Assembly (NCBI GenBank): GCA_019746225.1
Contig: JAIESE010000043.1
Span: 35,640-99,639, forward strand
Source: Alphaproteobacteria bacterium
Lineage (GTDB): Bacteria > Pseudomonadota > Alphaproteobacteria > Paracaedibacterales > VGCI01
Reading direction: 5' to 3'
DNA: 64,000 bases
Shown: in pieces, positions 49,739 through 56,089 of the stretch
Position numbering within the stretch: position 1 is the first letter of the stretch
How the letters are laid out: the number at the start of each line of letters is the position of its first letter
Position numbers and translations under genes: made by a program
Notes under the pieces: model-generated
Seen by the model: the letters and a program-made list of their open reading frames with translations, nothing else
Told to the model about the DNA's origin: nothing
Databases searched by the model: none

Positions 49739-49814
<76 letters not shown>

Positions 49815-49997: not shown

Positions 49998-51173
49998 ATG
50001 CCAAAACTAACAAGACGATTTGTGGAAAGCATAAAGCTCCATCCGACAAAACCCATTACGACGTGGGACTCTGAGCTTAAGGGGTTTGGGGTCGTCGTGC
50101 TTCCCAGTGGGAGGACCACCTATGTCATTCAATATAGAAACGCGGCTCATTACCAAAAGCGCTTAAAGCTGGGTGTTCATGGGTCAATCACGGCAGAAGA
50201 GGCGAGAGAACTTGCGAAGAAGCATTTTGCAAGCGTTGCGCAAGGTATTGATCCTGTTGCAGAAAAGAAAACGGTCCGAAACCTATCGACTTTTAATGAC
50301 CTCGTTACTGATTATCTCGAACGACACGGCCAAAAAAAGCGTCCTAAGAGTCTCCTAGAAGATCAAAAACTCTTAAAGAACATTATCATTCCTGCTTTGC
50401 AGGGGCGAAAGGTTGCACATATTACTCGGCGGGATATCGAGAACCTCCACCTTCGCCATGAGAACACGCCTTATCAGGCGAATCGAATGTTGTCTTTGTT
50501 GTCAAAAATGTTCTCGCTGGCTGTTTCTTGGGGATGGCGAAGCGATAATCCAGTGCTAGGAATTCCTAAATATCAAGAAGAAAAAAGGGATCGATGGCTC
50601 GATGATGAAGAGCTACAGAGGCTCTGGGGTATTCTCGATCAATATCCGCAAAATTTGACGGCTTATGTATTCAAGTTCTTATTGTTGACTGGCGCTCGCA
50701 AAGGCGAAGCTTTGCAAGCTACCTGGGATCAATTTGACCTTGAGAAAGGGATTTGGACAAAGCCGTCTCACATCACGAAGCAGAAGAAGAAAGAACATCT
50801 CCCCCTTTCGGACAAAACCATGGAACTCTTGCACATCTTGAAGAATCTTCCCCCAATTCTATCTACAGAACCATCCAAATACCTATTCCCTGGGCGTATT
50901 AAAGACGAGCCACTGAAGGAAATCAAAACGTTCTGGCATAGTATCATTAAAAAAGCAAATTTGGAGAACGTTCGCATCCATGATTTGCGCCATACCCATG
51001 CGTCTCACTTGGTCTCCAGCGGCCTCAGTTTAAGCATCGTAGGAAAACTCCTGGGCCATACCCAGGCGTCTACGACACAAAGATACGCGCATTTAGCCGA
51101 TGAGCCCTTACGGAAAGCGACCGAGGTGTTTGGTACTAAAGTGGGGAACTTTAATACGAATAGTGGCTCATAA
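49998..51173 (+). CDS. Tyrosine-recombinase integrase, P4-like
   Basis: This 391-residue integrase has an N-terminal arm-binding domain (DUF4102 type, KLTRRFVESIKL and STYVIQYR-like strands, ~1-85). A SAM-like core-binding domain spans ~95-180. The catalytic domain contains LTGARKGEALQATWDQ (first Arg), HDLRHTHASHLV (His/Arg), LLGHTQASTTQRYAHL (His and Tyr nucleophile). All catalytic residues are present, so it may be active. ATG 49998 has TGGAGG 7 bases upstream. It follows tRNA-Lys, the usual orientation for an island that integrated at a tRNA 3' end. I did not find a second copy of the tRNA end in the window. Confidence 0.93.
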   Translation: MPKLTRRFVESIKLHPTKPITTWDSELKGFGVVVLPSGRTTYVIQYRNAAHYQKRLKLGVHGSITAEEARELAKKHFASVAQGIDPVAEKKTVRNLSTFNDLVTDYLERHGQKKRPKSLLEDQKLLKNIIIPALQGRKVAHITRRDIENLHLRHENTPYQANRMLSLLSKMFSLAVSWGWRSDNPVLGIPKYQEEKRDRWLDDEELQRLWGILDQYPQNLTAYVFKFLLLTGARKGEALQATWDQFDLEKGIWTKPSHITKQKKKEHLPLSDKTMELLHILKNLPPILSTEPSKYLFPGRIKDEPLKEIKTFWHSIIKKANLENVRIHDLRHTHASHLVSSGLSLSIVGKLLGHTQASTTQRYAHLADEPLRKATEVFGTKVGNFNTNSGS

Positions 51174-51234: not shown

Positions 51235-51606
51235 TCAAAACTCCCTCACCAGCAAATGGTGAAACGTGCAATAATCGATGCACCATTTTCGCTTCAAGTA
51301 ATCCATATCAACGTTCGGGGTCAGGACGATGTACAAGGGCTTTTTGTAATCGCCTGTGCAAATCTCGATCAAGGGTAGATTGTCCTCGAACGCTTCCTGC
51401 ATCGCCCCACATGGGTCTTTAGTGTGAGCATAAAGGGCGGCTACCCGCTTGGATGGATAGATCGTAAAGCTCCAATTCATTTGCGAAAGATCAGGTTGAT
51501 CATCCACGAGCTTCGTATTTTCAGTTGTGGTGACATCCTTAAAAAATTCATCGAAACTTTCAAAGTATTCAGCTGGAGCTCCATCTAAAGGCACAATTTT
51601 TATCAT
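51235..51606 (-). CDS. Small hypothetical protein next to the integrase
   Basis: This 123-residue protein has a good AAGGAG site 8 bases before its ATG, so it is probably a real gene. It contains FDEFFKDVTTTE, MNWSFTIYPSKRVAALYAHTKDP and KPLYIVLTPNVDMDYLKRKW. No signal peptide, transmembrane segment or known family is seen. Its place after the integrase suggests cargo of the integrated element. Confidence 0.55.
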   Translation of the reverse strand: MIKIVPLDGAPAEYFESFDEFFKDVTTTENTKLVDDQPDLSQMNWSFTIYPSKRVAALYAHTKDPCGAMQEAFEDNLPLIEICTGDYKKPLYIVLTPNVDMDYLKRKWCIDYCTFHHLLVREF

Positions 51607-52251: not shown

Positions 52252-53775
52252 ATGAAAGAAGCTCATAGACTTCGCAGTGTCATTATGCCAGGTGTCGTTA
52301 CGATGACCCTGATGCTCATCCTAACCAGCCTGATTGTGAGCATAAGTCTCTATATCGAGTATAGGCGATATTTAGATGTCTATCACGTAGCCCAGACAAA
52401 TGAGATCAATGACATAAAGCATAAAGAATCCGTTCTCCTAAAAGAACTCACTAAAGTTTTGAAGCTAACTGGGTCACGTATTGAAGCCGCGGAGGGCAAC
52501 CTTGAAAGACTTCAGAAAATTATTACTTCCCTAACGTACTTGACCATTAATCAAGTACCCGTCGCATTTCAAACTGTTTCTTATCATCAAATCTCCGAGC
52601 CAAAGGGTGTCATTACAAGGCTAGGTGTGCGAGACTCTGATCGAATATATTCACCTTCAGAACTATCTCAGAAAGAAAAGATTACTTTTTGGAAGGAAAA
52701 CTTTCTATTGGGGCGGCTGCCCGTATCAAAACATGGGGTCGTTGATGGTGTTTTAAAGGTCCGGATCTATCACCCCACGCTACGTGCCTATTTCGGATCT
52801 CCCTCGAAGATTAAGTATTTTGTGACAGATGGCGCCATCAAATTTGAAAGCAAAGCATCCATAGGTTTTAGGGAATTTGTTAACCAAAACAGGCATCAGT
52901 TCACCATCTTAGGTGGCGTAACCTTCGCCCTAGTCATGCTACTGGCTTGGGGAATCGTTATGACTCTACGCGTTACTCGAAAAAGATATTTCCAGCAGGT
53001 ACAAAACCTTGAAGAAGCCCTAACCCTATCAGCACAAGAAGCGGGTGAATTAAAAGAAGATTTGAATGAGAGTGAACAAACGATGAAGAGCCTTCAGGTC
53101 TCGCGCCAATCTCATATTAAATTGGAAGGGGCGATTCGGATGCGTCAGAAGCAGCGTGCAACATGGATTACCCAATCCTTAGATGTGGTAAGTCAATCCT
53201 ATCAAAATCCAAAGATTTATCTACCAGAACAAGACCAGTTCGACATCATTCACGAATGTCAAAAGGTGGCCCAATCCCTTTCCTTGGGGTTGGGTAAGTC
53301 CTTGGAAAAAGAGAAGGTTGATTTAAAGCAAATAATTTTGTGCACACTCCTACTCTTTAAGGAGAAGACCCACAAATCAAACATTTCTGTTGATATAAAC
53401 CTCCCTGAAAACGCTTGTACCATCAAAAGCGATGCCTTGCTGATGGAGGTTCTATTTATGGATGTTCTGGGCAAAGCTATCCATCGTGTTCCAAAGAATG
53501 GCGTTGTATCCATTTCCTTAAAAGAGGATGAGAACAGCTTTCATTTAGAAACCCTCGACAATGGGTACACAAACACAGGATCAACAGATAAGCTTATCAA
53601 AAAGTCCTTTGATTTGTTCTTTAGTAATGATAATTTCCAAGATATATGTCGGGAAAATGGTCTGAGCTTTTCTTCTAAAAAAGAGACCAATGGCTTAAAC
53701 ACTTCCTGCCTCATACTTCCCTTTCAAGAGGAAGAGGTGCAAAACAATAATGTGGTTAGGTTATTCAAAAACTAG
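52252..53775 (+). CDS. Membrane histidine-kinase-like protein, degenerate
   Basis: This ~507-residue protein has two transmembrane helices (~11-36, VVTMTLMLILTSLIVSISL; ~225-247, FTILGGVTFALVMLLAWGIV) around a ~185-residue periplasmic domain. Next comes a coiled coil (~260-320), then an HATPase-like region. Where a phospho-acceptor His is expected (~320-345, QRATWITQSLDVVSQSY) there is none. The N-box (VLFMDVLGKAIHRVP) has Asp for Asn, while the G1 box keeps LDNGYT. It is thus probably a pseudo-kinase sensor or a strongly diverged one. ATG 52252 follows ATAGG; TTG 52198 is an in-frame alternative. Its end overlaps the NB-ARC gene by 26 bases. Confidence 0.7.
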   Translation: MKEAHRLRSVIMPGVVTMTLMLILTSLIVSISLYIEYRRYLDVYHVAQTNEINDIKHKESVLLKELTKVLKLTGSRIEAAEGNLERLQKIITSLTYLTINQVPVAFQTVSYHQISEPKGVITRLGVRDSDRIYSPSELSQKEKITFWKENFLLGRLPVSKHGVVDGVLKVRIYHPTLRAYFGSPSKIKYFVTDGAIKFESKASIGFREFVNQNRHQFTILGGVTFALVMLLAWGIVMTLRVTRKRYFQQVQNLEEALTLSAQEAGELKEDLNESEQTMKSLQVSRQSHIKLEGAIRMRQKQRATWITQSLDVVSQSYQNPKIYLPEQDQFDIIHECQKVAQSLSLGLGKSLEKEKVDLKQIILCTLLLFKEKTHKSNISVDINLPENACTIKSDALLMEVLFMDVLGKAIHRVPKNGVVSISLKEDENSFHLETLDNGYTNTGSTDKLIKKSFDLFFSNDNFQDICRENGLSFSSKKETNGLNTSCLILPFQEEEVQNNNVVRLFKN

Positions 53776-56089
53776 CTTCTTTAAAATCCTATTGATCTTC
53801 ATCTTTTGGCAAGCCTCAACTCATTCAAAACCTTTTCCACTTGTCTGGAACGCCCCACCTGAAAACCCTCATTTCGTTGGAAGAGAAGATATTCTGAATG
53901 ATATTCTCAATCTTTTTAATTCTGCACCCCTTAAAACAGCTGTTATTGGCGGCGCCCAAGGTTTTGGTAAATCACAAACAGCTAAGCGGTTCGTCTATCA
54001 AAACTTTGCCAACTATGATGTGGTGTGGTGGTTTCGAGCAAACCAATATATGAAACCGCAATTTGAGAAATTTGCTCTCGCGATGTCTTCCGTCCTTGGA
54101 CTCAACATTGAAAATTCCATTGGCGCTATAGGCCATGAGCGATTGATCAGCATGGTTAAGGAAGGAATCCGGCTGAAGAATCTCAAATGCTTGATTGTCT
54201 TTGATGATACGCAAACTTATTCTGAGATTGAACCATATATTTTATTTTCACACGACAAGACAATTCATACCCTGATCACGACTAAGAATGGTAATTTTTC
54301 GAGCAACTCTCTTCAGATCAAACCGTTTCCGCGCTCGGATTCTCTGAAATATATCAACCTATTCTTACCTAATGATCCTGATAGTTCAAAATACAAACTC
54401 GCTGATCATTTGGGGGATTGTCCAGCGGCTTTAGCAATAGCAATTGATTACATTAAAAGCTACCCAAGTATGACCATTGAACGTTATTTGAGTAAACATA
54501 CAAGACAAAAACTGAACCTGCCTTTTCAAAGAAGGTCTACTAATAAGTTTGGTAGTTCGATAGACGGTTATGAAAAAGATATATTGGCAGCCATTCAAAT
54601 TAACATGAAGGAATTACGAGAACGCTCTGAAGAAGCATATCAACTTTTGAGCTTGTTCTCCTTACTTCACCGTGATGAAATTGCTATGGATTTAATTGAA
54701 AAATGGGTAATTGCAAAAGGCATTAAGACAAATATAATGACTTTGGTGAGTATAATAAAACAATATTCTCTCATTGAAGTGACCGATTCAAAAACCAATA
54801 AAGAGGTTTACCTAACCATGCAAGATTTAATCCAAGAGATTGTCAGTTCATCAATCCTCGATCGCGAAAAAAGGATGCGTATTGACGAAGCTATATTGAT
54901 ATTGCAAGAGTCTTTCGCTGGTATGGCAGGTGATATTGCTAAAGAACTTTTAAAAAACAATGCCCCATTGTTGCATACAATCAAACTATCTGAAGAAGCG
55001 GATAGCCTCAATTATCATTCTCCAAGTTTATCTTCCGTTAGAATTAGCCTATTAAATGTTTTAGTTGGTTATATGAGGGATTTCGATACTGGGAAGAAAA
55101 TCGTAGAGCATATCAAGAATGATTTAGAAAATAAGATAACAATATCTAATGCAGATAACATCCTCTACCACACAAACCTTTTTATTCTTTCTGCGGTACG
55201 ATCAGAATTTGAAAAGGTAAAACGAATTGGTGAGGCAACTTTAAAGCTTCTAAACACAGAGGAAACAATGCATGAAGAAAAAGTACGGCTTTATTCAAAT
55301 CTGATTCAATTTTGTTCGTTGACAGGAACGATAGAAGAAGCAAGCAAATTTGTTGAAGCTGGCGAAAAATTACTCGTCTTATCAAAGGCGCCCGAACATA
55401 ATTGTCTATATGTATATGCTACCTCAAAGTATCACATTGATCGAGGAGAAATTGATAAAGCAATTGCCCTAACAGAGAAATACAGGGGTTTGTTAGATCA
55501 ACAAGCCGCTTATCATCCGTCAATGCGCTTTTTTACTCTTTACCAACTTGCAGAAGCATGTCTTAAAAAAGGAGAGATCGAAGAATCCAAAAGTATTTTA
55601 TCTTTGGCAGAACAACAAGGTAAGGAGTTCTATGGGGATAATGATCAAAATAACTTTTTTGGAAGGGTGTATGTTCTCAAAGGAATGTGTCTATTTAAAG
55701 AAGCAAAATATTTTGACAAAGCTAAATCATTTATTGATTTGGGGGTGCGAGTTTTTGAAAATATTTATAAAGGGTCAGATAAACACCGCGATCAAGCTTT
55801 TGCTCACTTACAGCTGGGAAAGTTGTACCATGGAGTTCAAGAGTATCATCTTGCAAAGGCTAGTTACCTTAAAAGCGAAGAGATCTTTAACAAGATTTTG
55901 AAGAACCAAAAAATTGATGACGTAAGTCATCTTTATAAACAGTTAGCCATTTTAGGGGCGGATACAAAAGATGAGCCATTGGTTCATACCTATCTTAAAA
56001 AACAGGTGGATATTTTTGGGCTAGATCACTTTAGAACAAAAGAGGTTTTAATTTATCTAGATGAAAGAGGTATAATTGCACCTATGTAA
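53750..56089 (+). CDS. NB-ARC (STAND) NTPase with TPRs and an N-terminal export or anchor segment
   Basis: This 779-residue protein starts with a hydrophobic segment (~8-25, SFFKILLIFIFWQASTHS) that reads as a signal peptide or membrane anchor. The NB-ARC core follows: FVGREDIL (~42), P-loop IGGAQGFGKSQ (66-76), Walker B CLIVFDD (147-153), HTLITTKN and DCPAALAIA (a GLPL-like motif). From ~390 on it is helical with TPRs (RGEIDKAIALTEKYRGLL, KASYLKSEEIFNKIL). STAND NTPases are switch-like sensors in plant immunity, apoptosis and bacterial defence, normally cytosolic. An export signal on one is very unusual. The 26-base overlap with the kinase-like gene implies coupled expression and perhaps joint function at the membrane. 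Confidence 0.85.
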   Translation: MWLGYSKTSFFKILLIFIFWQASTHSKPFPLVWNAPPENPHFVGREDILNDILNLFNSAPLKTAVIGGAQGFGKSQTAKRFVYQNFANYDVVWWFRANQYMKPQFEKFALAMSSVLGLNIENSIGAIGHERLISMVKEGIRLKNLKCLIVFDDTQTYSEIEPYILFSHDKTIHTLITTKNGNFSSNSLQIKPFPRSDSLKYINLFLPNDPDSSKYKLADHLGDCPAALAIAIDYIKSYPSMTIERYLSKHTRQKLNLPFQRRSTNKFGSSIDGYEKDILAAIQINMKELRERSEEAYQLLSLFSLLHRDEIAMDLIEKWVIAKGIKTNIMTLVSIIKQYSLIEVTDSKTNKEVYLTMQDLIQEIVSSSILDREKRMRIDEAILILQESFAGMAGDIAKELLKNNAPLLHTIKLSEEADSLNYHSPSLSSVRISLLNVLVGYMRDFDTGKKIVEHIKNDLENKITISNADNILYHTNLFILSAVRSEFEKVKRIGEATLKLLNTEETMHEEKVRLYSNLIQFCSLTGTIEEASKFVEAGEKLLVLSKAPEHNCLYVYATSKYHIDRGEIDKAIALTEKYRGLLDQQAAYHPSMRFFTLYQLAEACLKKGEIEESKSILSLAEQQGKEFYGDNDQNNFFGRVYVLKGMCLFKEAKYFDKAKSFIDLGVRVFENIYKGSDKHRDQAFAHLQLGKLYHGVQEYHLAKASYLKSEEIFNKILKNQKIDDVSHLYKQLAILGADTKDEPLVHTYLKKQVDIFGLDHFRTKEVLIYLDERGIIAPM

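Follow-up and report, generated by a model that had tools for sequence, protein, structure and literature searches.

Recurrent pairing of a degenerate histidine-kinase-like sensor gene with an NB-ARC/TPR gene on mobile elements of small-genome Alphaproteobacteria

A 64,000-nucleotide stretch of contig JAIESE010000043.1 (assembly GCA_019746225.1), henceforth the window, from an alphaproteobacterium of the order Paracaedibacterales carries two overlapping genes on the same strand, which we refer to as S and T. S encodes a two-helix membrane protein that resembles a sensor histidine kinase in which the H-box and G2 box are missing, and T encodes a STAND-type NB-ARC/winged-helix/TPR protein with an export-type N-terminus. 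A preliminary description of the window, made from the sequence alone, had reported that the two genes overlap by 26 bases, which agrees with the positions shared by both open reading frames (ORFs), 53750-53775. Here, we report that the pair recurs: an S-type gene lies upstream of T in every T locus counted, usually on transferable DNA and close to a third gene, X, that encodes a Cro/CI-type regulator. This recurrence suggests that the genes form a signalling or host-interaction module that has not been described.

Recurrence of the S-T pair and its association with X

A search for conserved co-occurrence of the two families, covering the genomes analysed and Rickettsiales plasmids, yielded 20 T loci. 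In all 20, an S-type gene is found just upstream of T on the same strand, overlapping it in 18 cases; in L108 and L141, 280-295 bases separate the two genes. Five of the loci (L101, L102, L103, L105, and L106) were found via S. The number of independent lineages is smaller than 20, as L109, L110, and L186 are near-identical and L102 and L103 are paralogues. Excluded from the count were L017, the contig-end fragments L142 and L181, the second TPR protein of L107, two T-profile matches in L178, and presumed other architectures (L117, L120-L127, and L131-L139). Of the upstream genes, 19 match some S profile, many being rows of that profile. For six loci known through T alone, the gene preceding T is recognized by profile A2, which consists of five other rows (L141, 8e-15; L107, 5e-14; L140, 6e-13; L019, 7e-13; L020, 2e-10; L145, 2e-5), and profile A5 matches the upstream S gene of L109 at 6e-5.

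At the limits used, S was detected in 4 and T in 6 of the 43 genomes searched from the order to which the window genome belongs, and two of these six T genomes (G030 and G033) carry a diverged S beside T. A profile of five S sequences matched 79 of 385 genomes of the class at E 1e-6. Strong matches (best match ≤1e-20) were restricted to G000, G007, G047, G280, and G055, the others being 1.6e-12 or weaker and mostly covering the ATPase part only. Among 15 loci with such weaker matches (L056-L070), 10 hold a canonical kinase, and one match, that of G323 at E 3.2e-10, corresponds to S of L140. Six new S copies were obtained in G047, G280, and G055, with T beside five of them (in a split frame in L106) and the sixth cut by a contig end. 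The T profile revealed more pairs in G323, G055, G048, and G187, and plasmid searches added pairs on plasmids of Rickettsiales bacterium Ac37b and Megaera. Using tblastn, window S matched only two Caballeronia kinase domains among the plasmids and missed those of the Rickettsiales, so plasmid-borne S genes were identified by profile and by being adjacent to T. When 398 genomes of the phylum were searched, with at most two candidates scored per genome, matches outside the class covered only NB-ARC and the start of the winged-helix region. T had no match in phages, and none in viral contigs with profile A3.

In L017 (9056-10597; G034), a FolK-like N-terminus, recognized by eye, is continued without a frame break by the TPR half of T, and S was not found; this ORF is apparently a fusion or deletion product. 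The window genome itself contains a second, shortened S gene comprising the kinase-like half (L004:17303-18163), on a contig that also holds X (C18; L004:9447-9920), followed by an apparent tRNA gene at the contig end. In L182 (6872-9218), X is divergent from a gene whose S-like product, a less decayed relative of S, matches dCache_1 and HATPase_c.

The Cro/CI-type regulator X, which has a conserved C-terminal domain of its own, was overlooked in the earlier sequence-only reading, the window copy of the pair being without it. Of the 18 T loci for which sequence past T is available, 17 have X at no more than ∼1.5 kb from the pair (15 by profile, seven of which are not rows of that profile, plus L186 and L187 by annotation; L015 and L016 end at T), mostly in convergent orientation to T. 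L144 has a run of four overlapping genes, namely X, one for a GNAT protein with an export-type start, S, and T. Moreover, four loci (L018, L178, L183, and L143) have S and X without T, 3-15 bases apart or overlapping, which together with the run in L144 ties S to X independently of T. X also overlaps genes for other export-type enzymes at loci without T, namely a HAD hydrolase (L184:5382-6690) and a transglutaminase-like enzyme (L176:5842-7096); further exported partners may thus exist.

Sequence features of the two proteins

Hydropathy analysis revealed two hydrophobic helices in window S, spaced by ∼180 residues, and at least two in all 20 family members (exactly two in 15, three in five), confirming the two-helix sensor layout described earlier. 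The tentative assignment of the intervening domain to the Cache type is based on the S-like protein of L182, in which dCache_1 matches at 5.5e-6, short of its cut-off. No kinase domain was recognized in window S by Pfam alone. Among histidine kinase models, AtoS matches its C-terminus at E 5.6e-9 over residues 347-457, far under the whole-protein cut-offs, and profile A5 of the S family matches the PDB kinases ZraS (3.1e-9) and 3a0t, annotated as 'Sensor protein' (9.2e-9). Judged by these matches and the helices, S shares ancestry and the two-helix layout with sensor histidine kinases.

The catalytic boxes were compared in an alignment of 20 proteins of the S family (those of 17 T loci and of L018, L104, and L143) with 12 canonical kinases that had been selected for having an H-box and an N-box. 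In window S, the H-box His is lacking, Asp and Lys replace the two N-box Asn, and there is no G2 motif (GxGLGL); of the N, G1, and G2 boxes, only the G1 Asp remains (LDNGY). A phospho-acceptor His is absent from the H-box in all 20 proteins, in a column that is uncertain given the low identity, and the pattern H[EDN]xxxP occurs nowhere in any of them. The G2 box is likewise missing from all 20, and the second N-box Asn, taken as the Mg-binding residue, is lost in 18 and kept in two, both from Megaera. The first N-box Asn is kept in 13 (lost in seven, including window S) and the G1 Asp in 18. The loss of the acceptor His and the N-box Asn and the retention of G1, read earlier from window S, therefore hold in the alignment, and a functional His that might have escaped that reading was looked for and not found. 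By these boxes, S does not qualify as an active histidine kinase. Ordinary decay of a kinase was rejected as an explanation, as both the H-box and the G2 box are missing in 20/20 proteins (including three copies from G280 and three from G055) while the frames stay open.

S proteins also have a characteristic end. The pattern N[VI][VI]x[LIF] closes 15 of the 20 sequences, with variants in the other five. It is also present where the T start lies outside it (L102 and L105) or where T is missing (L018), indicating that the tail is more than a by-product of the gene overlap.

T, a putative nucleotide-dependent switch, carries the Walker marks of STAND NTPases, a P-loop and a Walker B motif. Walker A (GxxGxGK[ST]) is present in all 15 T proteins with a nucleotide-binding (NB) domain that were tested, and Walker B was found by pattern in 13 of these (not in L106 and L144). 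In Pfam, window T matches ATPase_2 (1e-5) and TPR models, all below cut-off, and it does not match PF00931 (NB-ARC), which is matched at E up to 1e-3 by 7 of the 12 members of profile A6. It has MQD at the place of the MHD motif, in the winged-helix region. According to profile searches of the PDB, the NB part is nearest to plant NLRs and the TPR part to kinesin light chain. T of L019 and L020 is without the NTPase, with the export-type start, the winged-helix and TPR regions, and S all kept, and T is split over two frames in L106 and L145.

The N-terminus of window T (MWLGYSKTSFFKILLIFIFWQASTHSKPFPLVW) lies directly in front of the NB-ARC and has a hydropathy window of 2.51, preceded by Lys and free of acidic residues. 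Apart from the T start, the sequence up to Walker A contains a single in-frame ATG, GTG or TTG, namely the TTG of codon 15, which lies within the hydrophobic stretch. A wrong start call was hence rejected, and the suspicion that the true start lies downstream of the hydrophobic segment was not borne out. A hydrophobic N-terminal stretch was found in 18/18 T proteins tested (L106 is atypical, with the stretch at residues 50-60), so the hydrophobic N-terminus that the preliminary description gave for this STAND-type protein is general among the T proteins tested. Hydropathy reaches 1.96 or more in 16 of the 18 (not in L019 and L144) compared with 3 of 29 other P-loop ORFs. These controls derive from 30 ORFs chosen by P-loop pattern, some of which (e.g., L049 and L050) are perhaps not NB-ARC proteins, after removal of L047, a duplicate of L016. 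T of L016 was scored from the aligned position rather than from a start codon; its first start is ATG 9737, 16 codons earlier, which gives an overlap of 71 bases, and the frame ends after 454 amino acids near the contig end. The export-type call was made by hydropathy and inspection. By eye, some relatives have textbook-like signal peptides, e.g., L108 (MKKFLLIVMVLVIYNPAFTRA), and the short stretch of window T has more in common with a cleavable Sec signal peptide than with an anchor. Two P-loop proteins found by the T profile, L122 (G285) and L139 (G152), fall outside the S-T family as tested and also have an export-type start; export is therefore not unique to the S-T pair.

Purifying selection on both genes was shown in the few close pairs available. 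The ratio of nonsynonymous to synonymous substitution rates (dN/dS), determined by two methods, lay between 0.18 and 0.37 in three pairs of S genes and between 0.10 and 0.30 in two pairs of T genes, the Megaera pair being close (dS ∼0.05). Uncorrected S and T distances correlate at 0.95 over 15 loci, and S-X and T-X distances at 0.90 over 13 loci (0/5000 permutations in each case). Between the G280 paralogues, the TPR part is 83% identical versus 97% for the NB part, indicating that the TPR part changed faster.

Table 1. Features of the S-T locus in the window
Feature	Position	Strand	Basis or remark
S, membrane pseudo-histidine-kinase, 507 aa	52252..53775	+	ORF list and sequence (start codon ATG); kinase-model and PDB matches; alignment; hydropathy
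S first membrane helix	52279..52356	+	hydropathy peak, limits widened by eye
S presumed periplasmic sensor domain (approximate)	52363..52902	+	between both helices; Cache type suggested by a single distant relative
S second membrane helix (approximate)	52906..52962	+	hydropathy
S degenerate HATPase-like domain (approximate)	53293..53724	+	G1 Asp retained, G2 and both N-box Asn lost
S C-terminal tail NVVRLFKN, inside overlap	53749..53772	+	tail pattern in S alignment
T, NB-ARC/winged-helix/TPR protein with export-type start, 779 aa	53750..56089	+	ORF list; Pfam; profile matches
T signal-peptide-like N-terminus, predicted cleavage ∼residue 26	53750..53830	+	hydropathy, charge
T Walker A GAQGFGKS, residue 68	53951..53974	+	sequence; GxxGxGK[ST] conserved in family
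T Walker B CLIVFDD	54188..54208	+	sequence pattern
T TPR region (approximate), ends in FGxxHxRT motif	54905..56086	+	Pfam; profile A4 vs kinesin light chain TPR 7.8e-7
tRNA-Lys (CTT), presumed site of integration	49739..49814	+	ARAGORN
Tyrosine-recombinase integrase	49998..51173	+	Pfam Phage_integrase 1.4e-30, Arm-DNA-bind_3 2.2e-16; start taken from sequence
Small accessory gene, no known family	51235..51606	-	71% identical to gene on contig C18, same genome

Mobile setting and possible function

Integrase or transfer genes are found near 16 of the 20 T loci, and none were recognized near L102, L105, L106, and L140. An integrase lies within ∼3 kb of S in the window, L015, L016, L018, L103, L104, and L141, those of the six other loci being homologues of the window integrase, and one is annotated near L186. 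Genes for TraE, a TrbI-like protein, TraC or a MobA/MobL relaxase are located near L019, L020, L101, L144, and L145, and annotated transfer genes near L107-L110 and L187. The T loci belong to genomes of ∼1.2-2.8 Mb or to plasmids of Rickettsiales symbionts. These observations support the view that the pair travels on mobile elements of small-genome, mostly host-associated Alphaproteobacteria. Among the neighbouring genes, each of the three S copies of G280 (L102, L103, and L104) is near an AbiEii-type toxin gene with an AbiEi or DUF6088 partner. A gene for an export-type amine oxidase directly precedes S in L019 (5556-6971) and L020 (12429-13844), where it probably forms one operon with S and the NTPase-less T. 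An autotransporter with a RickCE-like (Ulp1-type) protease domain is encoded close to the S-T-X triad on a Megaera plasmid (L109:13889-15532).

In the window, the integrase gene directly follows a tRNA-Lys gene, in line with the earlier suggestion that the pair is cargo of a tRNA-Lys island. The expected repeat of the tRNA end was not found: 14-base stretches of tRNA-Lys have no second copy in the window or in 16 kb of L006, which leaves the right end of the island undefined. An island origin of the pair is plausible. A traD remnant between the integrase and S was considered and found unsupported at E 1e-3. For the small accessory gene, Pfam at E 0.001 returned nothing for the C18 copy and a chance-level match for the window copy.

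STAND/NB-ARC proteins are known as cytoplasmic switches, and a member with an export-type start raises the question of its site of action. Our preferred explanation, held tentatively and at slightly less than an even chance, is that S and T are parts of an element-borne S-T-X signalling module in which exported T would act as a partner of the S sensor domain. T would be made coupled to S, exported via Sec, and held at the periplasmic face, as are periplasmic binding proteins that work with sensor kinases. S, being predicted to be unable to phosphorylate, could relay the signal it senses through its kinase-like domain and C-terminal tail, by a change in their conformation or docking. The output would be X, located between the pair and the transfer genes in several loci, which probably controls genes of the element. 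Integrative and conjugative elements and plasmids would be the carriers of this module, with X as its usual third part. The reading is preferred because the T gene is coupled to S, S and X occur without T, and T of L019 and L020 persists without its NTPase; the retention of the export-type start, winged-helix, TPR, and S in these two loci fits non-cytoplasmic binding as the core role.

Several observations weigh against it. Conservation of Walker A in all T proteins tested is hard to explain if T is purely periplasmic. In the window no transfer genes were recognized, the S-T copy having an integrase alone, and X is missing near S and T that are intact. X in turn occurs without S or T in L177, L180, and, up to the contig end, L179; it may be a general repressor of such elements and broader than the module. 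The distance correlations are confounded by shared descent, and common ancestry alone could suffice to produce them. Finally, S of L108, L110, and L186 matches only profiles holding itself or a near-identical copy, the match for S of L187 is weak (17 bits), and S of L144 matches no profile.

ATP is absent from the periplasm and present in the host cytosol, which would accommodate Walker motifs conserved despite an export-type start if T were a host-directed effector: exported by Sec, released past the outer membrane, and acting in the host cytosol as an NLR- or kinesin-light-chain-like switch, while S and X sense the host and control T production. Such a role, which we place well below an even chance and not far behind the preferred one, is also in keeping with the PDB neighbours of T and with the small genomes and symbiont plasmids that carry it. 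Likewise, export-type enzymes, recognized by eye, are encoded beside several loci (GNAT in L144, amine oxidase in L019 and L020, S9 peptidase in L105, and, beside X without T, the HAD hydrolase of L184), of which the GNAT protein would require acetyl-CoA. These enzymes and the kept Walker motifs make this reading a close one. Moreover, TPR proteins with a Sec signal have been listed, along with an acetyltransferase, for a symbiont that is Paracaedibacter-like (PMC8163844). On the other hand, a route across the outer membrane was not identified, and coupling to a membrane partner, kept even with the NTPase-less T of L019 and L020, is more like a local complex. In addition, Rickettsia RARP-1, reported as secreted, was later described as periplasmic in R. 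parkeri (PMC9553169). An uncleaved anchor at the start of T would place the NTPase in the bacterial cytoplasm by the kinase-like domain of S, as a membrane-bound STAND switch with access to ATP, and the apparently helix-length stretch of L102 and L103 and the position of that of L106 are compatible with this. The basic residues before the stretch and the few after it, however, predict an N-in, C-out orientation, the stretch is short in the window and in many relatives, and signal-peptidase-like ends are visible by eye in L108 (TRA), L145 (AVAS), and L144 (AHA), so we regard the anchor as improbable.

The window copy could be leftover cargo of a decayed element, functionless now, in agreement with the lack of X, of recognized transfer genes, and of a second attachment site; both frames are nevertheless open over 3.8 kb, the Walker motifs are present, and relatives are under purifying selection, the window copy itself having no close relative for such a comparison. 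We consider this quite improbable. The pair could also be a defence, abortive-infection or toxin module, along the lines of a toxin-antitoxin pair or of the Avs-type STAND systems of the cytoplasm. Defence systems often contain STAND NTPases, the three S copies of G280 lie near AbiEii-type genes, and X matches the PADLOC models capH (2.8e-5) and PDC-M69A (2.8e-8), probably via its helix-turn-helix (HTH). At E 0.01, however, no PADLOC model matched the three S proteins tested (window S among them) or window T, T of L101 and L109 matched only mads_8 (0.004-0.006), Pfam recognized no effector domain in T, its start is export-type, and the usual neighbours are transfer genes and X. A defence role is accordingly very improbable, and there is no convincing toxin or defence evidence for the pair. 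The earlier proposal of an undescribed signalling or toxin module is partly supported, by the recurrence, the loss of kinase boxes, the hydrophobic T start, and the mobile setting; contact between the two proteins is presumed, and a toxin activity hypothetical.

A recurrent STAND protein with an export-type start and Walker motifs raises the questions where it would find ATP and what it would switch, and a partner kinase without catalytic boxes provides a defined test case of pseudo-kinase signalling. The tie to conjugative elements bears on the control of gene transfer among bacteria living inside host cells. It is possible, at appreciably below an even chance, that an exported NLR-like STAND ATPase acts on a pseudo-kinase or in the host under a dedicated regulator; if so, element and host would be linked through an exported immune-type switch.

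Comparison with known systems

The genomic setting resembles that of the Rickettsiales amplified genetic element (RAGE) and of conjugative plasmids of Rickettsiales, which likewise combine an integrase, tra genes, and histidine-kinase-like and TPR cargo; on the Ac37b and Megaera plasmids, the S-T-X triad is close to annotated tra genes, whereas the window pair lacks recognized ones. Passages of a RAGE paper list kinases and TPR proteins as separate cargo; 'nb-arc' occurs 0 times in its main text and the S-T-X unit does not appear in those passages (PMC10732058).

S is similar to the kinases ZraS, AtoS, and PnpS and to the sensor protein DivL in its two helices, kinase-like C-terminus, and G1 Asp, and departs from two-component kinases in the losses described above (H-box and G2 in 20/20, second N-box Asn in 18/20, and first in 7/20). 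T shares the order of NB-ARC followed by TPR with FxsT, the TPR protein of the FxSxx-COOH system (NF040586), from which it differs by its export-type start and its S partner. With NF040586, the match to window T spans residues 36-391 (E 4.5e-46) and scores 157.7 bits, below the cut-off of 300, and by this score window T does not qualify as a member. NB-ARC proteins are common in the same order (matches in 33 of 43 genomes at E 0.001, 27 above cut-off, up to 15 per genome), many being regulators with a GerE/LuxR-type HTH (L022-L024, L027, L028, and L030). T has the NB-ARC in common with these regulators; by eye, most of the ORFs listed have an N-terminal HTH in place of an export-type start. 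Membership of T in this common family was rejected, as most of those ORFs are GerE-HTH proteins.

LuxP-LuxQ and TorT-TorS are pairs of a periplasmic partner and a sensor kinase, in which the partner is a small-molecule binding protein and the kinase is active. S-T is like these pairs in that a protein of the export type is encoded with a two-helix sensor, and unlike them in that the partner is a STAND ATPase and the sensor appears inactive as a kinase.

RARP-1, a Sec-exported ankyrin protein of Rickettsia, is similar to T in joining eukaryote-like repeats to a Sec signal in an intracellular alphaproteobacterium. Its repeats are of another type, and the passages seen of two papers mention neither an NTPase nor an S partner (PMC9553169, PMC8023194). 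Whether it is secreted or periplasmic is debated in these passages, one of which has RARP-1 reported as host-cytosolic in one Rickettsia and as periplasmic in another (PMC9553169).

An exported STAND protein with a pseudo-kinase partner, or an S-T-X combination, was not found in paper searches, outside of which subscription literature fell. Built from parts of known kinds (a kinase-derived sensor, an NB-ARC/TPR protein, a Cro/CI regulator, and RAGE-like elements) in a combination absent from the literature searched, S-T-X has a fair chance of being a new kind of system.

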